From positions 1-64,000 of the forward strand of contig JAVZRN010000003.1 in the NCBI GenBank assembly GCA_038880555.1: DNA of 64,000 bases, read 5' to 3'. Made by a program: the position numbers and the translations under genes. The DNA comes from Candidatus Bathyarchaeia archaeon (lineage in GTDB: Archaea; Thermoproteota; Bathyarchaeia; Bathyarchaeales; Bathycorpusculaceae). The notes under the pieces are model-generated. The model was not told where the DNA came from, made no database searches, and was given only the letters and a program-made list of their open reading frames with translations. Positions 20,038 through 32,580 of the stretch are shown here, piece by piece (the first letter of the stretch is position 1; each line of letters starts with the position of its first letter).

Positions 20038-21302
20038 AGCTTGGAGTTTTTGCAGATACTCATGTTGGCAGGTCTATACCAAACGTTATAAGCGAGCATA
20101 GACGTCAAGCTTTTAGACACGCTTTCTCCCAAGCCGTAAACATTTTCATCAAAGAAAGAGTCGAGTATGTTATTCACGCTGGCGACTTGTTTGAGAGAAG
20201 AAGCATGACGCCATCTGACTCGCTTTTCGTTAAAGAGGAGCTCCAGAGGCTGGTAGACTCGCTTGGCGAGAAAGTGAAGATAATATTAGTTAGAGGAAAC
20301 CACGATGGGACACCTGAAAATAACGCCCTCAATTATGTGGAGCATCCTCTGGCAAGGTACCTAAAAATTGTCGGCGAGAAAATCCTTAAAGGAGACCCAG
20401 AATCATTCGAAGAGGGAGACTTTGCGATTATCGGTTTCGGTTATACTCCGTATGTGTCAACAAAGCTGGCTGAGTTGAAAGATATTCTAAAGGGCAGTTT
20501 TGAAAAATTAGGAGCACGCCATAAAATCTTTTTAGCCCACATGTTTGTAGAAGGACAGGAGATACCGCCTAACGTTCCCGAGTATCAAATAGCCACCATA
20601 AGCTTGATGAAAGATTTGGGTGCAACCTTAATTATTGCGGGCCACTATCACAAGTATCTACCACTAAGAGAAAGGGATGGAGTTTTTCTTCTGTGTCCTG
20701 GCGCAACGGAAGCGATAGATCTCTCAGATGAGGGCCCCTTTGGAGTTTGCATTTTGAAGTTAAACGATAAAGTGGAATGTAATTTCGTTCCATTAAAGCC
20801 TCTACACAAGATAAAAAGTGAAACCATCGATAGTAAAGGAGCAGCCCAAAAGCCAAACTGGTTCGTGGAGAAAGCCATAGAAGCTGCAAACAAGTTTTCA
20901 AAAGAAATCCAAAGCGAGGAGATCGAGGGTATATTCAGAATCGCACTACGTGGAGTAGTTGATGGAAGCCGGTTTGACCTAGAAGCAGACATTGAAGCCC
21001 AAATGCAAGAAATACGTAGAAACAATCCAAAGCTTCTCCACGTTGAAATTGATAATGGATTAAGTGAACTATCGTCTGGAGTGATAAGTGTTCCAGAGCA
21101 CATGAGCAGAGACGAGTTTCTCCGAGAAGTGTTCAGTGTTCTAGGCGAAAAGGGATTGGCCCAAGCCCTTAGCCTAGCTGAAGAGGTGCGAATGGCCCTA
21201 GAAGAAAAAGCAAGCTCACAGACAGGCCTGTTGAAGGAGTCAGATAGAAGGCCCTTTATTGAAAAGTGGCTGAAAATTCTGGAGGACCTAGATGTATGCT
21301 AA
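20031..21302 (+). CDS. mre11: Mre11 nuclease
   Basis: 423 residues with the calcineurin-like phosphoesterase motifs in order: FADTHVGRS (residue 7), IHAGDLFERRS (near 47), VRGNHDGTPE (near 86), LAHMFVEG (near 168) and IAGHYHKY (near 202). The manganese-dependent nuclease partners Rad50 at double-strand breaks. A coiled capping region and a C-terminal Rad50-binding helix follow. It overlaps herA by 7 bases and rad50 by 7 bases. Confidence 0.93.
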   Translation: MVKLGVFADTHVGRSIPNVISEHRRQAFRHAFSQAVNIFIKERVEYVIHAGDLFERRSMTPSDSLFVKEELQRLVDSLGEKVKIILVRGNHDGTPENNALNYVEHPLARYLKIVGEKILKGDPESFEEGDFAIIGFGYTPYVSTKLAELKDILKGSFEKLGARHKIFLAHMFVEGQEIPPNVPEYQIATISLMKDLGATLIIAGHYHKYLPLRERDGVFLLCPGATEAIDLSDEGPFGVCILKLNDKVECNFVPLKPLHKIKSETIDSKGAAQKPNWFVEKAIEAANKFSKEIQSEEIEGIFRIALRGVVDGSRFDLEADIEAQMQEIRRNNPKLLHVEIDNGLSELSSGVISVPEHMSRDEFLREVFSVLGEKGLAQALSLAEEVRMALEEKASSQTGLLKESDRRPFIEKWLKILEDLDVC

Positions 21303-23620
21303 TTGAACGGCTTGAACTGCGGAATTTTGAGGGATATAAACAGGCCGAAATAGACTTTACAAAAGGCTTAAACATCATTACTGGGCGAAACTCCACGGGA
21401 AAAACAACGATCCTCGAAGCGATACTCTTTGCCCTCTACGGCGGGGGACCGGGCCTCGAGAAAAAACTCCTTGTTTCAAGACTTCAAGGCAGTGCTGGCT
21501 TAATGTCTGTAAAGATAACGGCGAACATGCAAGGAAAACGTGTCGAAATAATAAGAGAAGGCAGGCTCGTTGGAAAGGAGGATGAGTCTAAAAGGTTCAG
21601 AACCGAAAGGCTTGACTTAATGGTTGACGGCAAGACTGTGCCAATTCACGGCGAAGAAGAACTTAATAAAAAAATTAGCGAGCTTACCGGCATGGGCGTC
21701 AAGATGTTTACAACCCTCATTTATTCACGGCAAGGTGAACTCACAAGCATACTTGAGCCTAAAAAGGAAGACATGGACCTTATTCTCGGAATATCCATCA
21801 TGAAGGAGCTCACCGAACAACTTGACTCGGCCAAGAAATCCCTCGAGAAATATGAGGGAAGAGACGCAAAAACCGTGCTCGATATGTATTTGCAGCAGCT
21901 TCCCAAAACAATGAGCCAAATAGATCAGCTTGCAGGGCAAGTAAATAGGCTTTCACGCGAGGTGGAAGAACTAGAAGAGGTGGTGACCAAAGCGAAATCA
22001 AAAGAGCTGCTGGAGCTAATTGGGAATATTGAAAAAAGAGACAGCATACTTCGGAAAATGCAGGAAAAGGAAACGGCAATAATTAGCATATTAGCGGGAA
22101 GAGGTGTCAAAAGCATAGAAGAGCTCAACGAACTTACCAAACATGTAATTCAAAAAGGAGAAGAGCTTAAATCAGAACTACAGCAGCTAATCGAAGAGGA
22201 AAAAGGAATTGAAAATATTTTTAATGATTTGAGTTCAAAGCTTAATAAAATTGAAGCTTTCTTAAAAAGTCAAAACGTCTCGTCACTACGGGAGCTGGAG
22301 CAACAGATAGCATCTCTAAAAAACGAATGCCAACAATTAAATGGCAAATTGAGGGAGGAGGAAGGAAGGCTAACTGACATAGAAAATACAAGAAACCAAT
22401 TAAATGGAAAATACGCAACACTGACTGAAGAGGTAAAATCCCACGAGGACCTCTTATCGAAAGGCCTTGCAAACTGCCCAACATGCGGACAAGAAATAGA
22501 TCCAACGGTGCTCGAACAAATCATAGAAGATAAAAAGGAGCTGATGGGTCAGCTAGCTCAAAGATTGCAGGAAGTAGATAGAGAATACCAGAATAGAAGG
22601 GAAACCGTTCAACGCCTTCGACAATCACTTACTGAAAGGTCGTTAAGACTAAATCAGTCCCAAAAAATACACGATGAAATAACCACAATTCTTGATGGAA
22701 AAACCATTGAAGAGCTAGAAAAGAGTAAGGCCGCAGCGGAAAAGGATCTCAATGGAATCCGAGAAACGATTAAAGAGCAAAATGAAAAATTGGCTAAATT
22801 ACTGCTGGAGAAGGAAGCTCTTGAAAAAGACAAAAATACTGTGAACACGATGATTGAAGAAAGAAGAAGCCTTGAACAGGAACTTTCAGAAAGTTATAAA
22901 ATCATTCAAGAGAACTTACGAGTTTTAGGTCTTCCATTTCAGCCTGAAGACGCTGACCTAAAGGCCAAGATAGCTGAACATCTCCCCCTAAGCCTCGAAG
23001 AACTCTCTAAAAAGGAGGAAGAACTTGAACAGAAAAAAGACGATCTTAAACGGTTGACGTCAACCCTTGATGGCTTGCAGAAAGAAGAAAGAGAGATGAA
23101 AGAGAAGGTTGCCCTACTTCAAAAAAGACTTAGTAAAGTTAAGATTTGCGATGAACTGCTAGCGAAGATAAAGGGCGGAATAGAAAGCCAGAGAGAAAGG
23201 AGGCTAAGACGAATAGCAGACGAGGCCTTAAGGATTTATGAAACTCTTACAGACCAACGAATTTATAAGGCCTTCAGAATAAACAGAGATGACTATACGG
23301 TTGAAGTTTTTCCATCGAGACTTGAAGGATATATTCCCGCAAAAAGGACTGGTGGAGGTCACCAAACATTAATTGCGTTAGCGTTTAGGATAGCCCTACT
23401 GCATGTGTTAAATCAGCGCAGCCTCCTAATTTTAGACGAGCCTACCTACGGAGTTGACTCTGAAAACCTCCCACAACTCATGAGCTATTTCTCCGAAGCC
23501 GCCAAGAAACTGGGCCAAACGATCCTCGTAACACATTATGGACTAGGGGAAGAGGAAGCCGCAAACATAATTAAGGTCGGTATCGCCCCAGATGGATCTT
23601 CGACAGCGAGTAAAACCTAA
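21296..23620 (+). CDS. rad50: Rad50 SMC-like ATPase
   Basis: 774 residues from ATG 21296 (an upstream frame to 21266 would lie within mre11). Walker A is GRNSTGKTTILEAI (near residue 31), the zinc hook is CPTCGQEID (near 394) between long coiled coils, the signature motif is RTGGGHQTLIALAFR (near 685) and Walker B is LLILDEPTYGVDS (near 710). This is about 100 residues shorter than the well-known hyperthermophile Rad50 proteins, mainly in the coiled coils. Last gene of the resection operon. Confidence 0.94.
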   Translation: MLIERLELRNFEGYKQAEIDFTKGLNIITGRNSTGKTTILEAILFALYGGGPGLEKKLLVSRLQGSAGLMSVKITANMQGKRVEIIREGRLVGKEDESKRFRTERLDLMVDGKTVPIHGEEELNKKISELTGMGVKMFTTLIYSRQGELTSILEPKKEDMDLILGISIMKELTEQLDSAKKSLEKYEGRDAKTVLDMYLQQLPKTMSQIDQLAGQVNRLSREVEELEEVVTKAKSKELLELIGNIEKRDSILRKMQEKETAIISILAGRGVKSIEELNELTKHVIQKGEELKSELQQLIEEEKGIENIFNDLSSKLNKIEAFLKSQNVSSLRELEQQIASLKNECQQLNGKLREEEGRLTDIENTRNQLNGKYATLTEEVKSHEDLLSKGLANCPTCGQEIDPTVLEQIIEDKKELMGQLAQRLQEVDREYQNRRETVQRLRQSLTERSLRLNQSQKIHDEITTILDGKTIEELEKSKAAAEKDLNGIRETIKEQNEKLAKLLLEKEALEKDKNTVNTMIEERRSLEQELSESYKIIQENLRVLGLPFQPEDADLKAKIAEHLPLSLEELSKKEEELEQKKDDLKRLTSTLDGLQKEEREMKEKVALLQKRLSKVKICDELLAKIKGGIESQRERRLRRIADEALRIYETLTDQRIYKAFRINRDDYTVEVFPSRLEGYIPAKRTGGGHQTLIALAFRIALLHVLNQRSLLILDEPTYGVDSENLPQLMSYFSEAAKKLGQTILVTHYGLGEEEAANIIKVGIAPDGSSTASKT

Positions 23621-25495: not shown

Positions 25496-27793
25496 TCAAC
25501 TTAACACCAGCTGCTTTTCATGACGTAACGATAAGTCCCGTATAGTTGCCGAGTTGTATCCTAAAACTCCTAAGAGTGTTTCTCCAGCTTCAAATAGAAG
25601 CATCAGATACTTTTGTGCGTCGTATTTTAGTTTTGAACCGATTAATGGAAATGCCTTAACCCGGTTGTAGGGACTTTTGTTGTCTTCGTCTACAATTATA
25701 TATTGTATTGTTTGGCCCGGATATACGTCGAAGCCTGCGGCCATAAGTTGTTTCGCGGCTATGGCTTGGAATACTTCATGGGTGTATTCTTGTGGATGTT
25801 TCGACAATCTTTTTGTTATCAGCATATCTTCAGCCGTAACTCTTCCCTCTAAAATTTTCCCTGCATACTTTGTGATGACTTTTAGGCTTTCCGGGATTCT
25901 TTTAAGAAACTCTTCAAAGTTTTTAGCCGTGCTTAGGGATTCTATCATTTCAAGCTGGGCTTGTTTTATTATGCGTGGAGTGTCTGATCTTCTGGCTTCA
26001 ATTCCCCTCATTTTTATCCGGCCGTCCTCAAAGACGCCATAGTATCTGTTTAACACTGGTGTTTCCGGGTGAATCTTTGACGGCAGGAAGACTATCCAAC
26101 GGTATTTGCCCTCAACATTTAATGGAACATTCACCATCCTCTCCGCTTCGCGGCAAAAGTCTACAACTTCCCTTGGATTTACTCCAGGCTTTTTAATCCA
26201 CAACGAATCAACTATTCCGTGGACAACTTCGAAGCCATGTTCCTCAGCCAATCTCGCGGTTTTCAAAAGCGCATCTCGTGCGAAGGCACAGACAGCTATG
26301 TGGGCGTCTACCTTGCCAAAGCGAGCGTTCCTATAGCCCAAATACCCGAAGCACGTGACAAGAATCCATTTTAATGCAGACTGCCTCATGTCAAAAATTT
26401 TTCCAAGACTGGGATCAGAAGTTTCTTTGACCATGCGTTTGTATTCTAATCGTTTCCGCAAGAGGAGGTCCAGTGTTTTCGGCACGATCCCCCTCCTTTT
26501 TTCACATATGTGGTAGCCAAGCTCAGGAACCCTCAACCTGGAGTCAGGGCAGCATTTGCACAGCACAGTTTCGGCGGATATGTTTCGCGTAAGCATGAGC
26601 ATTGGAAACATGGAAGTAAAGTCTACTTCCACTACATCGGTGTGAAAGCCCAGCTTTGGTTCGAAGATGAAGCCTCCCCTATCGGCAACCAGCAGCTCCC
26701 ATCCTGTTTTGAAGGATTCCGGCTCCCTCTTCTTCCAGGGTATTAGGATTTCATCCTTCCAAGCCGTGTAAAGCTGGAGAGACGTCATTATGCTGCCTAT
26801 GGACGCCCTAGCTGCCCTATGAAGCGGAACACGACATGTCCTTGAAACCTCTATTAGACCTTCAAGTCCGCTGGCGGAGTAGATGAAAGTGTTGTTGACG
26901 TCTATGTGAATTCGGCCGTAAAGCCTTCTTAAAGGGGCTTTGTAATAAACGCGGCCATATGAGAAGTAGCTTCTACCCCTCACCTTTTTCGCTTTGAGGG
27001 GTATTTCCTCTCTACTTAAAATGAACTCGTTTAGAACACCGTTCACAAAAGCCCTGTAGGCCATGTATGGGAATACGAAGGAATCCCCTCCCTCAGTGTA
27101 GATTATATCGGGGTCTATCAGTCGAACTGTTTCAACCGTTTTTAGGATTATGTCAGCTTCGTCTCCGTCTAAATTTAATGACTGGCCGTTAAACTGTAGG
27201 GTAACATTTCTAATCTTGTCTTGAAAACTAACAACGGGAGACTCTTTCTTAACGTTCATTCTAAGCCACATGGAGCGTAAAGGCGGCAGTTCATACTGGC
27301 AACTTTCAACGGAATCTAATAGCTCATAGCCGATTTGCCCGCCCTTCTCGTAGGCCAAAACTTTAGCTAATGGGAAAATGTCCCTTTCGTAGAGGTATGC
27401 TTGGGCTATCGGGACGTCAACATTATAAAGTTGGTATTTTACGTATCCGCCCAAACGGAGAAGTTTCCTTGCAAAATGTGGTGTCCGACCATAATCAGTC
27501 ATGTCGATCTCTAAAACCGTCTTTTTAGAGGCTTCCATGAAGTCTGCATATTTTTCCACAAAGCGAAAGTCGGCCACGGATCCGCTGCCAATTATTTTTC
27601 TTGTTATCTCTTTCAAGGCAGCGTGGTCGCCAGCAACGTAGATCCTATGCACATATTTGTCGACCAGCTTGACGCGTTCCCCGTTTTCGCTTATGATCCA
27701 TACAGTTATCTGATTCGGCCCTGAGGGGTAGACGTCTAGAATCCAGCCTTTAACCGCTTTAAGCCTTCTGAAGCTGTTTTTCCAGTCGTTCAA
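25496..27793 (-). CDS. Divergent family B DNA polymerase
   Basis: 765 residues. Motif A is intact (VVEVDFTSMFPMLMLT, near residue 388), motif B is recognisable (SALKWILVTCFGYLGYRNAR, near 474), and motif C reads HGIVDSLWI (near 527) where replicative enzymes have YGDTDS: the first Asp is lost, the catalytically essential second Asp is kept. In the exonuclease domain ExoI reads LEIDMTDYG without the second acid, and ExoII reads IYTEGGDSFVFPYM. So proofreading is probably lost and polymerisation may be retained, as in PolB2-like archaeal enzymes linked to translesion synthesis. It is last in an operon with a RadA paralog. Confidence 0.82.
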   Translation of the reverse strand: MNDWKNSFRRLKAVKGWILDVYPSGPNQITVWIISENGERVKLVDKYVHRIYVAGDHAALKEITRKIIGSGSVADFRFVEKYADFMEASKKTVLEIDMTDYGRTPHFARKLLRLGGYVKYQLYNVDVPIAQAYLYERDIFPLAKVLAYEKGGQIGYELLDSVESCQYELPPLRSMWLRMNVKKESPVVSFQDKIRNVTLQFNGQSLNLDGDEADIILKTVETVRLIDPDIIYTEGGDSFVFPYMAYRAFVNGVLNEFILSREEIPLKAKKVRGRSYFSYGRVYYKAPLRRLYGRIHIDVNNTFIYSASGLEGLIEVSRTCRVPLHRAARASIGSIMTSLQLYTAWKDEILIPWKKREPESFKTGWELLVADRGGFIFEPKLGFHTDVVEVDFTSMFPMLMLTRNISAETVLCKCCPDSRLRVPELGYHICEKRRGIVPKTLDLLLRKRLEYKRMVKETSDPSLGKIFDMRQSALKWILVTCFGYLGYRNARFGKVDAHIAVCAFARDALLKTARLAEEHGFEVVHGIVDSLWIKKPGVNPREVVDFCREAERMVNVPLNVEGKYRWIVFLPSKIHPETPVLNRYYGVFEDGRIKMRGIEARRSDTPRIIKQAQLEMIESLSTAKNFEEFLKRIPESLKVITKYAGKILEGRVTAEDMLITKRLSKHPQEYTHEVFQAIAAKQLMAAGFDVYPGQTIQYIIVDEDNKSPYNRVKAFPLIGSKLKYDAQKYLMLLFEAGETLLGVLGYNSATIRDLSLRHEKQLVLS

Positions 27794-28028
27794 GGTCTTC
27801 CTTAATCTCCATAATTTCCCTCTGCAAGCTTAACAGAATACACATGAACATGGCTTCTGAAAGAACTGGTCGTGCCGCCATTCCGCCTGCGGAAGCGTAG
27901 GCCCGACAAGCATTTATCATCTTGTCGAAGGCTTCAAGGTCTTTGCCCCTCAAAGCTTTTCTAAAGCCCTCCCAGTTTGCGATCTCGGCCTCTATAGCGT
28001 GACGGTAAGATGGAACGGTTCTTCCCAA
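27759..28028 (-). CDS. Small helical protein between RadA paralog and polymerase
   Basis: 89 residues, helical, ending in a leucine-heptad coiled coil (REIMEIKEDLERLEKQLQKA). It overlaps the polymerase start by 35 bases and follows the RadA paralog by 2 bases. The middle (EAFDKMINACRAYASAGGMA) may bind a partner. Likely an accessory subunit or adaptor of the polymerase; function unknown. Confidence 0.6.
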   Translation of the reverse strand: MGRTVPSYRHAIEAEIANWEGFRKALRGKDLEAFDKMINACRAYASAGGMAARPVLSEAMFMCILLSLQREIMEIKEDLERLEKQLQKA

Positions 28029-28030
28029 AA

Positions 28031-28735
28031 CTACACCTCCAAAAACTTCGTTAAAAGCAGGTTTTCTGTGGGGATTTCAAGCTCGAAAGGCTTGATTTTC
28101 GGGTGATCCTGCAAGGCGAAGCGCAAAATCTTATTTTTCCTGTCAAACTTGATTATGATGCTGGTTTGGCTGAACAAGGCTGCATCAAAAAACACTCCGC
28201 GCCTGGAACTTCTGTCGGGATGGTATGTTGCCAAAATTATTTTTTGCCTTTTCTTAGATGTTTCGGCCAGTTTATGGCAGACTTTCAGAAAAAGGTCATG
28301 GGCCTCAGTTTTCGGTATGTCTCTATCCATAAAGAGCGAGGCTATGTCCGAAACTAGGACGAGAGCAACGTTATGGCCGTCGAGGAACTTTTCTAACTTT
28401 TCAAGGATTAGGGCGGAAAGCTGGTAGGCTGTGAAGGCTCTGGAAACGTGGATCCTCTCTAAAACAGCCTTTGGGTTAAGCCCTAAAATTCTTGAATAGT
28501 CGGCTATAATGTAGGGGTTGAAGCAGTTCCCTCCATCAATAAAAGCGACGTCTTGGCCTAAGCCTCCTCGTTCATGGGCTGAAATGCAGCGAACACAGAG
28601 AATAAAGCCTAATAATTGCGCGTCGTTGCCGTGTATAGCGGCGAAATCGCCGGGCTGAAATCCCGGAAAAACGTCATCGATAGTTGGAATGCCTATTTTG
28701 AGACTCTGCAAGCCTTCAGCCCTTAAAACACACAA
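28031..28735 (-). CDS. RadA/RecA-like paralog with degenerate Walker A
   Basis: 234 residues with the RecA core: GIPTIDDVFPGFQPGDFAAI leads to the P-loop position, which reads HGNDAQLLGFIL instead of GxxxxGKT, so ATP hydrolysis there is unlikely. The Walker B strand VALVLVSDIASLF and later core strands remain. Inactive RecA paralogs act as mediators, and ImuA in bacterial mutasomes is a RecA-like protein encoded with a translesion polymerase. By analogy this may recruit the divergent PolB to RadA filaments or lesions. Confidence 0.7.
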   Translation of the reverse strand: MCVLRAEGLQSLKIGIPTIDDVFPGFQPGDFAAIHGNDAQLLGFILCVRCISAHERGGLGQDVAFIDGGNCFNPYIIADYSRILGLNPKAVLERIHVSRAFTAYQLSALILEKLEKFLDGHNVALVLVSDIASLFMDRDIPKTEAHDLFLKVCHKLAETSKKRQKIILATYHPDRSSRRGVFFDAALFSQTSIIIKFDRKNKILRFALQDHPKIKPFELEIPTENLLLTKFLEV

Positions 28736-28737
28736 TT

Positions 28738-28947
28738 TTAAGATCCACCAGACGCAAGTGACTTTACCCTTAACGGTGTTAGGATTTTAATCTTTTCTCC
28801 TTCCTTCCTACGCTTAAAGAAACTACATTTCAACGGTGTTCCAGGGTTATCGATATAACGCCTCCACCCTGGACGAGTGCACTCCCATTTCCCCATAACC
28901 GTATTAAACTGTAAATAAGCACATCCTAGACATACAGCGAATTTCAT
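28738..28947 (-). CDS. Small Cys-rich protein at the head of the polymerase operon
   Basis: 69 residues with four Cys (CLGCAYLQF, WECTRPGW, KCSFFKRRK), probably one zinc site, and a basic C-terminus. ATG 28947 stands 66 bases from the divergent RHH gene, and a minus-strand TATA (CTTATAAAA, 28973-28981) lies about 26-34 bases upstream. First gene of the leftward four-gene unit leading to the polymerase. Confidence 0.6.
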   Translation of the reverse strand: MKFAVCLGCAYLQFNTVMGKWECTRPGWRRYIDNPGTPLKCSFFKRRKEGEKIKILTPLRVKSLASGGS

Positions 28948-28972
28948 GGTGAGATTGAACGTGCACCGGAAG

Positions 28973-29003
28973 TTTTATAAGTTTACTTGTTTACTAGTAA
29001 ACA
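28973..29003. promoter_or_regulatory. Two-way TATA box and perfect 16-bp palindromic operator
   Basis: TTTTATAAG at 28973-28981 reads as a TATA box on both strands, serving the divergent genes that start at 28947 and 29013. TGTTTACTAGTAAACA at 28988-29003 is a perfect palindrome, partly echoed by GTTTAC at 28981 and GTTAAC at 29005. It covers the expected start of rightward transcription, ideal for repression by the RHH protein encoded next to it. Confidence 0.7.
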
Positions 29004-29012
29004 TGTTAACAA

Positions 29013-29426
29013 ATGTCACATGTAACTGCCGTTAGGGGCCTGGACAAAGAATTATACCAAAGAATATATACGTTAGCAAAACAGAGCGGAAAAAGAGTAT
29101 CTGACCTCATAAATGAAGCCCTGAAAAATTACCTACACAGCGCGGACGATCCGGTCAACCCTAATCAGCAAAATCCCGTAATAGAGAATGCAGGTTCATT
29201 AACCCTTACAAAAAGCGTTATCCTCAACCTCCACCAGGAGCTACAGAAAGAGTTCATAATCCGAAACGATGGAAAACTACTAATAGACCAAGACGTGACA
29301 AAGGAAACCCTACAACACATCAAATCCATCGTAAATACAAGCTCCGGAGTGGTAAAAGCTCCAAAACACATCTACCACCTAATCATTTTAAAGTCTAAGA
29401 ATTACGGCTCTCTAGAAATGTATTAA
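29013..29426 (+). CDS. RHH transcription regulator, likely repressor of the repair operons
   Basis: 137 residues: N-terminal RHH domain (SHVTAVRGLDKELYQRIYTL, then RVSDLINEALKNYLHS, residues 2-45), a linker, and a C-terminal alpha/beta domain from about residue 65 (SVILNLHQELQKEF, LLIDQDVTKETLQHIKSIV) that might sense a signal. The palindrome 10 bases upstream of its start is the expected autoregulatory site. Followed after 51 bases by the Nei-like glycosylase gene. Confidence 0.7.
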   Translation: MSHVTAVRGLDKELYQRIYTLAKQSGKRVSDLINEALKNYLHSADDPVNPNQQNPVIENAGSLTLTKSVILNLHQELQKEFIIRNDGKLLIDQDVTKETLQHIKSIVNTSSGVVKAPKHIYHLIILKSKNYGSLEMY

Positions 29427-29477
29427 AAAAATAACTGAAAGGGAAACATTAAACGTTTCAACATGAACTTATAAAAT

Positions 29478-30254
29478 GTGGTTGAGGGACCTACAGCCAA
29501 AGCCTACGCCATCAAAATTAGCAATGGATTTCGCAATGAAATTGTTAGGGACATTTATATAAAATCGAGAAAAGTTTTCGTTCCGGAAAAGGGGATAGTT
29601 GGAAAGAAATTCCGTGGATCCGACTCCATCGGCAAAAACATTCTACTATTCTTCGATAACAAAATTATCATCAGGATTCACCTAATGATGTTTGGAGCCA
29701 TCCATATCTACAACATTAATGACCCATTGCTTAAACCAAAAGAAAGGGTAAGGCTCATAGTTACAGGCGACCAAAAGAAGATTGTAGTTTACAACGCGCC
29801 CATCGTGGAGTTGGATGAGGAAAGCAAAATTCTCGGAAGATTAAAGATGGAACTAGGCCCTGATCCACTGAGCAATGAATGGGACAGAACGAAAGCTTTT
29901 GAAAACATTGTTAAATTTCCAGAAGAAAAAATCGGCGCGGTAATGCTAAACCAGTCAGTTATAGCTGGCATCGGCAACATTTTAAGGAATGAAATCCTTT
30001 TTAGAGCTGGTGTTAACCCGGAGAGAAAGATTAAGGACCTTTCCACCGATGAAATAGAAAGAATTGTTGATTTTGCCAAAAAATTAAGCGACGAGTTCCT
30101 AGAGCGCAAACTACACGGCAAACAAATTAAGGACTTACTTTTTGTCTACAACATGTTCAGCGGGTTCTGCAAGGTTTGCGCGCATCCCATCAAGTTTTAT
30201 ATGCAGAAACCAATAAATAGGAAGACGTTTGTATGCGAAAACTGCCAAAAATAA
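29478..30254 (+). CDS. Fpg/Nei-family DNA glycosylase
   Basis: 258 residues from GTG 29478. The N-terminus is MVEGPTAKAYA: the usual catalytic Pro after Met is Val here, as in NEIL3-type enzymes, while the following Glu is kept. The helix-two-turn-helix region reads LNQSVIAGIGNILRNEILFR (near residue 155). The C-terminal zinc finger is CKVCAHPI...CENC, close to the end. It excises oxidised bases in base-excision repair. Possibly an operon with the upstream RHH gene; an AACTTATAAAA sequence just before the start might be its own TATA but sits unusually close. Confidence 0.85.
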   Translation: MVEGPTAKAYAIKISNGFRNEIVRDIYIKSRKVFVPEKGIVGKKFRGSDSIGKNILLFFDNKIIIRIHLMMFGAIHIYNINDPLLKPKERVRLIVTGDQKKIVVYNAPIVELDEESKILGRLKMELGPDPLSNEWDRTKAFENIVKFPEEKIGAVMLNQSVIAGIGNILRNEILFRAGVNPERKIKDLSTDEIERIVDFAKKLSDEFLERKLHGKQIKDLLFVYNMFSGFCKVCAHPIKFYMQKPINRKTFVCENCQK

Positions 30255-30311: not shown

Positions 30312-30497
30312 TCAATCGTTTCTAGTTCTTAAGTCTTTCAACAATTGCAGTTTCTCAGCGTAGTTTACAAGAGCCAAGCGTAGAGCCTCACTTTCACTGG
30401 TTCCAAGAACTTCACATAATTTTTCAAGTATTTGCTTTTGCCTTTGTGTTAAGTATACCTTTATTTTCACATTTCTAACCAATTTTTGTTCTTTCAT
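30312..30497 (-). CDS. RHH-type small regulator
   Basis: 61 residues from ATG 30497: a basic start (KEQKLVRNVKIKVYL) then TQRQKQILEKLCEVLGTSES and EALRLALVNYAEKLQ, an RHH-like fold. It is transcribed away from the ParB-like gene and lies at the left border of the GC-rich element. The sequence between 30255 and 30311 holds nothing recognised. Confidence 0.55.
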   Translation of the reverse strand: MKEQKLVRNVKIKVYLTQRQKQILEKLCEVLGTSESEALRLALVNYAEKLQLLKDLRTRND

Positions 30498-30592
30498 GCG
30501 TGAGGCCCCCAAATTAGGCCCAATATGGTCCCGCTCACCTTTTAGATTCTATTTGCAGATTTTTCCTTAAAAAAGCTCGCTTCGTTTTCAGG

Positions 30593-31726
30593 GTGAATGA
30601 TTTGGAGCATGTCAAAGAAAGTTCGAGGGTCGAGGATTTGGAGATTGAAAGGCTTACGCTTACCCCTTTGACCGTGAGGGTGAACGTTGGCGATCTTGAA
30701 CCGCTTGCTGAATCCTTCAAGCTTAGCGGTGTTTTGGAGCCTCTGCTGGTGCGCCCCTCAAAGTCTGAACCTGGCAAGTTTGAGGTTGTCTGCGGAATGC
30801 GCAGGTTTTTGGCTGCCCAAAGGGTTGGTTTGAGGGCTGTTCCATGCATAGTGAAAGACATGGATGACCGCGAAGCCATGGAAGCCACGCTTACCGAAAA
30901 CCTTCAGCGGGAAAATTTGACGGACTTCGAGGTTGGCAGATGGTTTAAGCTTTTAATGGAGAAGTTTCCAGGCGAATATCCATCACAGCAAGCGTTAGCG
31001 AACAAGTTTAAAGTTACACAGCGAATGGTTTCGTATCTCGTAAGCCACTACGAATTTATTGAACAAATTAAGGGTCGGCTTCCGCCAAACATTAGAACTC
31101 GAGTTCTAATGTTGCCTGAAGCTATGATTCGCGAGGTTAAACGTGCCCCCGAACAAATTCAAGATAAGCTTGTCCATGCTATTGTAAGAACCTTTGAAAA
31201 GTTTGAGCGGGGCGAACATCCGTATCCGCCAAGTGTCCGGGATATAGCCGCGATGGTGGACAGCTACGTCCAGAGCTGGAAACGGAGAGCTGAACCCCCT
31301 GCGGAAAAGTTGGAAGGCGAGAAGTGCGCCGAAACGCCTGAAAAGCCACCAGAACCTGAGGCTGCGGAGTCAAAAGTTCCTGTTAAGCCCGAACCCGTTA
31401 AACCCCAAAAGGAGATAGCTTCAGCCCCCATGACTCTTCCGCCGCCGGTTCCGCCCCTGTCCGAGCGCGAAGTGGAGGCTACCTTGGAGGAAACGATCAT
31501 AAAGCGGAGAGAGGCGAGGCTTAAGCGGGAGGAGGAGGCTGTCGTAGCCCTCTACAAGTATTATCCGGAAAGCTTCATAAAAGATCTGGAAAGCTTCTGC
31601 GGCGCTGGAACACCTATCGAGAGCATCCAGAAGCTCGCATACTACACTGTCGAGGTGGCATGGGATAGGTTAAGCGACGCGGAAAAGCTGGACATTATAC
31701 GTGAGGCAAGGAGTTGGATGGATTAA
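30593..31726 (+). CDS. ParB/Noc-like partition protein
   Basis: 377 residues. The N-terminal ParB-type CTPase/nuclease domain shows ESFKLSGVLEPLLVRPSK, VVCGMRRFLAAQRVGLRAVP and TENLQRENLTDFEVGRW (residues about 40-120). A helix-turn-helix follows (PSQQALANKFKVTQRMVSYL, about 128-150). A Pro/Glu-rich linker (about 240-300) leads to a helical C-terminus. No ParA gene is seen. The start is GTG 30593; an ATTTTTC element lies at 30559. The four TTTTCAyAGCTrTGAAAA palindromes in the element are candidate binding sites. Confidence 0.78.
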   Translation: MNDLEHVKESSRVEDLEIERLTLTPLTVRVNVGDLEPLAESFKLSGVLEPLLVRPSKSEPGKFEVVCGMRRFLAAQRVGLRAVPCIVKDMDDREAMEATLTENLQRENLTDFEVGRWFKLLMEKFPGEYPSQQALANKFKVTQRMVSYLVSHYEFIEQIKGRLPPNIRTRVLMLPEAMIREVKRAPEQIQDKLVHAIVRTFEKFERGEHPYPPSVRDIAAMVDSYVQSWKRRAEPPAEKLEGEKCAETPEKPPEPEAAESKVPVKPEPVKPQKEIASAPMTLPPPVPPLSEREVEATLEETIIKRREARLKREEEAVVALYKYYPESFIKDLESFCGAGTPIESIQKLAYYTVEVAWDRLSDAEKLDIIREARSWMD

Positions 31727-32580
31727 ACCGGCTCCGTCCAACGCTTAAGCTGTTCCTAAAAGTTTTGTTCAGGTTGAAGTATCTCGAAGGTTTCGGCGAG
31801 CAGGAGATCTTAGACATACTTGGCCTTCCACCCTTTATCATGGAAAGGTTTTCAAGGAAGCTTGACGAATATCTCAGGTCCAAGCTTGGCGAGGTGTCGC
31901 CGGAAACCCTGAAAAGCGTTTGTCCCGAGTGTCTCGAGGCGCGCGTTTTCTTCGACCATGAATCCGGCGAGAACGTGTGCGTAAACTGCGGGCTCGTCAT
32001 AGATGTGGAAGGCTACGACTTCAGCCTTTCTTTTGACACAACTTATGCCTTGACCAGCGAGCTTGCCTACGGCAAAAGCTTAGGCGGAACCTTAGGCTAT
32101 CAGGGCATCGTAAGAGTTTTAGCCAAAAGCCCATCCACCACCGAGCTAGCTAAGGCGGGAAACGCCCACTTAGGCACGAGGGCGAGGATAGCCCGGCTTA
32201 TAACGGAGGTCGTCGAGCCCACGTCCCTCCGCCTCGCCTTGAGAAAGGCAAGGGACCTCGCGTATAGGTACGGGCTTCAAAGCGACTACGTCTTCAACAA
32301 CTTCGTCGGCATCCTCGTAAAGCGAGCACACTACTTCAGCCACATCATAGCCGAAGGCCACGCGTTCGCCCAGAAGCTGCCTGAAACGTGCTTCTGGATG
32401 GCGTTGAGGCGGTTCGGCAAGGAAAACCTCGTCTGCCGATTCCTTCAGGAAAACAAGGTCAACCACGGGCTCGCCGTGGCAATGGAAGAACTGCAATCCT
32501 TCCTCGAGGACGTAAGGCGTAGAGGAAGATTGCGAGCGAAGGTGTTGCAAGCACATCCCATGCTGGCGGCGGTTCCGTGA
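31714..32580 (+). CDS. TFIIB-like zinc-ribbon protein
   Basis: 288 residues from TTG 31714, overlapping the ParB-like gene. Residues about 70-95 form a TFB-type ribbon: CPECLEARVFFDHESGENVC then CVNCGLVID. The N-terminal 60 residues look like a helix-turn-helix (EGFGEQEILDILGLPPFIME) and the C-terminal 180 residues are helical with no clear cyclin repeats. TFB recruits RNA polymerase via this ribbon. An element-encoded version could direct transcription to the element's own leader motif; this is inference. Confidence 0.6.
   Translation: MDGLNRLRPTLKLFLKVLFRLKYLEGFGEQEILDILGLPPFIMERFSRKLDEYLRSKLGEVSPETLKSVCPECLEARVFFDHESGENVCVNCGLVIDVEGYDFSLSFDTTYALTSELAYGKSLGGTLGYQGIVRVLAKSPSTTELAKAGNAHLGTRARIARLITEVVEPTSLRLALRKARDLAYRYGLQSDYVFNNFVGILVKRAHYFSHIIAEGHAFAQKLPETCFWMALRRFGKENLVCRFLQENKVNHGLAVAMEELQSFLEDVRRRGRLRAKVLQAHPMLAAVP

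Follow-up and report, generated by a model that had tools for sequence, protein, structure and literature searches.

The closest described relative of the system discussed here is the archaeal PolB2 mutasome, published by Timinskas, Timinskas and Venclovas in 2025 (PMC11791011). In that paper, PolB2 is a polymerase whose exonuclease has decayed and in which the first Asp of the DxD motif is usually replaced, iRadA lacks the ATPase residues, PPB2 carries an MGRT arm, and the three genes are adjacent and co-directional. The paper further reports a clamp-binding motif in iRadA and models of the complex, made for relatives, as a heteropentamer with a PPB2 trimer; expression induced by damage would be a further mark of such a system. 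The authors liken the mutasome to Pol V (UmuD'2C-RecA). Here we describe such a mutasome at positions 25496-30254 of a 64,000-nucleotide stretch (the window) of contig JAVZRN010000003.1 of Candidatus Bathyarchaeia archaeon, which we compared with 256 genomes of the same class (Bathyarchaeia). In the window, the mutasome operon (minus strand) is divergent from the genes of a ribbon-helix-helix (RHH) regulator and a Nei-type DNA glycosylase (plus strand), with a short repeat array between them. We consider it probable, judging from sequence comparisons, that a dedicated RHH autorepressor co-controls the PolB2 mutasome and the lesion-removal glycosylase through this one array.

All six genes predicted in an earlier note on this DNA were found where it had placed them. 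Four of them form a minus-strand operon (28947-25496), transcribed in the order orf69, iRadA, PPB2, PolB2. The B-family DNA polymerase PolB2 (25496-27793, minus strand; DNA_pol_B in Pfam, E 5.7e-35, with NCBIfam concordant) has IVD for DTD in motif C, which reads HGIVDS vs YGDTDS in the genome's two other PolBs. Alignment to these two also shows that its ExoI D.E is lost (RMN vs DIE) and its ExoII altered (GGDSFVF vs NGDDFD), in line with the note's description of a GIVDS motif and degraded exonuclease motifs. Its RecA-fold protein without Walker A held up as well: iRadA (28031-28735, minus strand, 234 aa) matches Pfam Rad51 at E 6.7e-09, lacks the N-terminal domain and the Walker B Asp, and reads GNDAQLLG at the P-loop position, and its alignments with RadA start only past Walker A. 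The C-terminus of iRadA is NLLLTKFLEV, and relatives end in PLTDFMEV and similar; by eye, these ends resemble the clamp-binding motif reported for iRadA, and NLLLTKFL a PCNA-binding (PIP) motif. The two small proteins seen in the operon are PPB2 and orf69 (28738-28947, minus strand), a 4-Cys protein encoded by the operon's first gene. PPB2 (27759-28028, minus strand) is of the arCOG07300 kind and was assigned from its sequence MGRTVPSYRHAI, with the conserved MGRT arm in the N-terminus MGRTVPSY, and from orthologs at the same position in nearly all PolB2 loci fetched. Because the GIVDS motif, the lost exonuclease motifs, the MGRT arm and the missing Walker A match the published definition, we conclude from these sequence characters that iRadA, PPB2 and PolB2 of the window are the archaeal PolB2 mutasome.

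The synteny survey that the note had called for agrees with this assignment. A PolB match to the window's PolB2 at E <= 1e-40 was found in 117 of the 256 genomes, though the weaker of these may partly be other PolB groups. We read 31 PolB2 loci other than the window's, and 27 of them have the order iRadA-PPB2-PolB2. The note had supposed a conserved unit of four genes. Since the conserved order is that of three genes and orf69 has only three clear members, the unit is one of three genes, which orf69, RHH and Nei adjoin in the window's genus only. The conservation of this unit across Bathyarchaeia also means that the mutasome itself is already known. The note's proposal of an archaeal translesion unit stands as to the mutasome operon, and its local repressor control has strong sequence support in a unique operator-like array conserved with the RHH family, but the translesion system had already been described.

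The locus shares with the published mutasome its gene order, its motif losses, the MGRT arm and, at the C-terminal end of iRadA, a possible clamp motif. It differs in having orf69 as first gene, a divergent RHH-Nei pair and an operator-like repeat array; RHH and Nei are not mentioned in the available excerpts of PMC11791011. That paper lists orc1/cdc6, lexA, SRAP and DUF72 as enriched mutasome neighbours. One or two DUF72 genes are divergent from the mutasome in 15/31 of the PolB2 loci that we read. In G133, a genome of the same genus, a DUF72 gene lies directly downstream of PolB2 and convergent to it (L074:9066-9779, minus strand); we saw no such gene at the corresponding position of the window. 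The comparison with bacterial ImuA-ImuB-DnaE2 was the earlier note's own, whereas the published authors compare with Pol V instead (PMC11791011). Both ImuA-ImuB-DnaE2 and Pol V join a translesion polymerase to a RecA-family subunit, but their polymerase families and small subunits are others, and the likeness is one of architecture rather than membership.

The evidence for local control lies in the 65 bp between the start codons of orf69 (28947) and RHH (29013). In this interval we saw a single TATA-like element (TTTTATAAG, 28973-28981), which is near-palindromic and might serve transcription both ways. Directly after it start four GTWWAC units with an exact 8-bp period (28981-29010), which form an operator-like array of three GTWWACWW and a final GTWWAC: GTTTACTT GTTTACTA GTAAACAT GTTAAC. 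Three-unit arrays were absent from 100 shuffles of the window, and none is expected by chance. The array is unique in the 1.75-Mb genome. Elsewhere in the genome, two units match only once, inside a P-type ATPase gene. A tally of 2-mismatch sites on contigs C1 and C3 gave four sites beyond the array; three are in coding sequences, and C1:476990 is intergenic without the TATA-array form. A further match is on C4 (16323). From the sites tallied, a wider RHH regulon in this genome was rejected.

The array follows the regulator across the class. A three-unit scan that tolerated one mismatch found it in 31/256 genomes, in 29 of them just upstream of an RHH ortholog; the control pattern, read backwards, gave only a few scattered matches. 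The remaining two genomes (G070 and G071) contain GTATAC arrays, and that of G071 closely precedes an unrelated RHH antitoxin-like gene. The layout of a TTATAA element followed by the array recurs before most RHH homologs, and the array was absent from every PolB2 locus that we read in which RHH is missing. In the comparison with a genus mate, the TATA-array stretch had changed at 1 of 40 positions (W to W), vs 5 of 25 in the adjoining bases. Tandem repeats at the RHH gene's own promoter region, conserved in its orthologs, are what a predicted RHH autorepressor would be expected to show.

A familiar example of such regulation is omega of pSM19035, an RHH repressor with a tandem-repeat operator of 7-bp heptads. 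The putative autorepressor of the window (29013-29426, plus strand), which the note had also taken for an RHH regulator, resembles this type as a predicted small RHH autoregulator with short tandem repeats over a promoter. It is unlike omega in the 8-bp period of the GTWWAC units, the archaeal TATA promoter, the conserved C-terminal domain and the repair neighbours. The protein matches 'Arc-like repressor' families in PHROG (7.8e-4) and has full-length homologs.

The gene identities, the core synteny, the lost motifs and the unique array coupled to RHH genes are observations; what we infer from this arrangement is a shared promoter, repression, induction by damage, a lesion type and the formation of a complex. 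RHH would bind the four 8-bp units beside the single TATA-like element. It would repress its own RHH-Nei operon, as the array covers the start region of that promoter, and would also repress the orf69-mutasome operon by covering the BRE side that this TATA has in the opposite reading direction. The orf69 start lies ~30 nt from the TATA-like element, which is a leaderless distance, and its transcript is probably leaderless. A signal, presumably linked to damage, would lift the repression, and Nei and the mutasome would then be co-expressed. The glycosylase would remove oxidised or abasic-type lesions, while the polymerase complex would bypass those remaining: PolB2 would extend primers beyond lesions, with PPB2 as small arm subunit and iRadA as a non-catalytic RadA-like subunit and possible clamp tether.

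Several points weigh against such joint control. Divergent genes need not share regulation. No part of the array extends past the TATA-like element towards orf69, and repression of the mutasome therefore depends on this TATA being shared. The full cassette, orf69-mutasome divergent from RHH-Nei, was found in two genomes of one genus only, the window's and G133 (contig JAGTQI010000035.1), out of three genomes of that genus; in the third, PolB2 is at a contig end and the arrangement cannot be judged. The Pfam matches of the RHH protein are weak and below cut-off (RHH_3 0.0086, RHH_1 0.066). In addition, a neighbourhood with Endo_dU that links other members of the RHH family to repair (see below) may be a single inherited event.

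An alternative explanation might be that RHH controls the RHH-Nei operon alone, and that the mutasome is separately controlled and the divergent layout incidental. The one-sided position of the array would fit this explanation, as would RHH-array units that stand apart from a mutasome: in G198 the contig has none, and many other genomes have none nearby. Yet, the two start codons are very close and have one TATA-like element between them, orf69 starts at a leaderless distance from it, and the divergent orf69-RHH pair is retained in a second family. This last point comes from G198, where an intact orf69 homolog (L123:2953-3144, plus strand) is divergent from RHH on a 5.4-kb contig with no iRadA, PPB2 or PolB2. 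We therefore regard control of RHH-Nei alone as rather unlikely, although it deserves serious consideration.

The pairing of orf69 with RHH in G198, away from any mutasome, would also suit a toxin-antitoxin-like or selfish regulatory pair that has captured repair genes, with RHH as an antitoxin-type autorepressor and orf69 as its partner. The best NCBIfam match of RHH is indeed a RelB-like antitoxin model (21.8 of 50 bits, far under cut-off), and the GTATAC arrays of G070 and G071, the latter before an antitoxin-like gene, point in the same direction. However, orf69 has no toxin-family match in Pfam, NCBIfam and PHROG searches, it is transcribed away from RHH instead of together with it, and it is missing at most RHH loci, whose divergent position is taken by other genes. 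A captured toxin-antitoxin pair thus seems quite improbable, and joint control of the mutasome and Nei by RHH remains our preferred explanation. The two homologs of orf69 are 81% and 63% identical to it, and C6, C9, C23 and C41 are invariant. With three clear homologs, the window's included, orf69 was rejected as a general mutasome subunit. In family f15 (L134:5761-5988, L135:6066-6260), small two-CxxC zinc-finger proteins are divergent from RHH, and GTATAC-type repeats replace GTTTAC/GTTAAC.

The role proposed for PolB2 presumes an active polymerase. The replacement of the first motif C Asp in GIVDS and the loss of the exonuclease motifs might suggest that the polymerase is degenerate or inactive and serves a purely structural role. 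However, PolB2 retains the Asp of motif A (VDFTSMFP) and the second Asp of motif C, and its reading frame is unbroken in many genomes. Moreover, Dpo2, the PolB2 of Sulfolobus islandicus, actively extends primers and lacks exonuclease activity (PMC8764526), and its motif C is IID according to PMC11791011. Because this enzyme is active with a like substitution, a substituted motif C does not equal inactivity. We consider an inactive PolB2 very improbable; the window's PolB2 is likely, by its sequence, a primer-terminus extender in translesion synthesis. The two enzymes belong to the same polymerase group, both with the first motif C Asp replaced and the exonuclease activity absent. They differ in that activity has been shown for Dpo2 whereas the window's PolB2 is known from sequence, and the abstract of PMC8764526 describes no local RHH repressor.

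In a PolB tree of 35 rows, which contained no curated PolB1/PolB3 reference set, the window's PolB pairs with that of a genus mate (100/100), and the two join eight more relatives from the family, order and class (100/100), ten in all. A branch of 3.6 changes parts this PolB2 set from the genome's other PolBs. The window's PolB thus stands apart from them; a grouping with the main replicative enzyme is what the note would have counted against its proposal. It is 77% identical to its same-genus ortholog and 45-70% to others. The PolB2 genes of two relatives (L079:4701-6996, L081:5090-7386) are apparently broken near the 3' end, each giving two tblastn pieces, which could be assembly error or decay.

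The second enzyme of the cassette, reported by the note as a divergent Nei-like glycosylase (29478-30254, plus strand, 258 aa), matches H2TH at E 8.1e-18 and also Fapy_DNA_glyco in Pfam. Its sequence carries the predicted hallmarks of the Fpg/Nei superfamily, namely the N-terminal catalytic residue position, E3, the conserved Lys, the H2TH Asn and, at the C-terminus, a zinc finger that has an RKT loop. V2, E3, K53 and N167 are invariant among the aligned members, with an N-terminal Val instead of Pro; all nine begin with MVEG, eight of them with MVEGP, and the zinc finger and RKT are retained in all rows except the truncated L072. A mature enzyme that starts with Val, together with E3 (MVEGP), corresponds to the vertebrate NEIL3 state. 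Within the superfamily, the protein is like NEIL3 and Nei in its H2TH, its zinc finger and the Val after Met with E3, but it is archaeal, has 258 aa and lacks the C-terminal NEIL3 domains. Its chain scores are best to Fpg/MutM and lower to NEIL3 chains, and the MVEGP start alone favours NEIL3. The close Nei subfamily (60-84% identity) is present in 10/256 genomes and was seen adjoining PolB2 only in the window's genus, while elsewhere it lies in unrelated places; RHH-Nei was therefore rejected as a general PolB2 neighbour. Literature searches on archaeal NEIL3-like enzymes and on PolB2 in Bathyarchaeota found no paper that combined all the terms searched.

The RHH family has a second repair setting. 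In families f25-f27, the RHH gene is directly upstream of Endo_dU on the same strand, followed by the gene for the PolD small subunit, and the divergent gene encodes an HTH protein. Of 14 such RHH loci checked, 13 gave an Endo_dU match (PF01949, E 3.9e-46 in one example), and this enzyme family cleaves DNA at deoxyuridine (PMC11585767). There are thus two settings, RHH-Endo_dU and RHH-Nei, in which this regulator precedes an enzyme acting on base lesions. The window's own genome has Endo_dU genes elsewhere but none beside RHH, in G198 the RHH gene divergent from orf69 has neither Endo_dU nor Nei, and at the loci read for more distant RHH homologs, from outside the class but within the phylum, no neighbour is obviously a repair gene. 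The gene neighbourhoods make a link of the RHH family to repair suggestive, not general. The cluster of HTH-protein, RHH-Endo_dU and PolD small subunit was seen at L124-L132 and L136-L140, where RHH is preceded by the GTWWAC array or something close to it.

More tentatively, and with a chance that we would put somewhat below even, this conserved Bathyarchaeia family may consist of dedicated one-site controllers of DNA-lesion handling (RHH-Endo_dU in several families; RHH-Nei with the mutasome in the window's genus), forming small SOS-like switches coupling lesion removal and bypass via a shared operator and promoter. The mutasome is known, but its repressor-operator-glycosylase setting appears new. 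In LexA-less archaea, the switching of translesion polymerases is known mainly from Sulfolobales, where Orc1/Cdc6 homologs have been linked to the damage response (as cited in PMC11791011). If our proposal is true, control of a mutasome by a repressor that acts at one sequence-defined operator would offer a small, directly testable archaeal damage switch, in which a base-repair glycosylase and lesion bypass are joined in a single regulatory unit.

Further genes lie on both sides of the cassette. A Rad50/SMC-like ATPase (21266-23620; AAA_23, E 1.1e-22) is encoded ~2 kb past the PolB2 end of the operon. To the right of the Nei gene, a ParB_N protein (PF02195, E 7e-18) overlaps a TFIIB-type zinc-ribbon protein at 30593-32580, and a second small RHH protein is encoded at 30312-30512 (minus strand); this region resembles the border of a plasmid- or virus-like segment.

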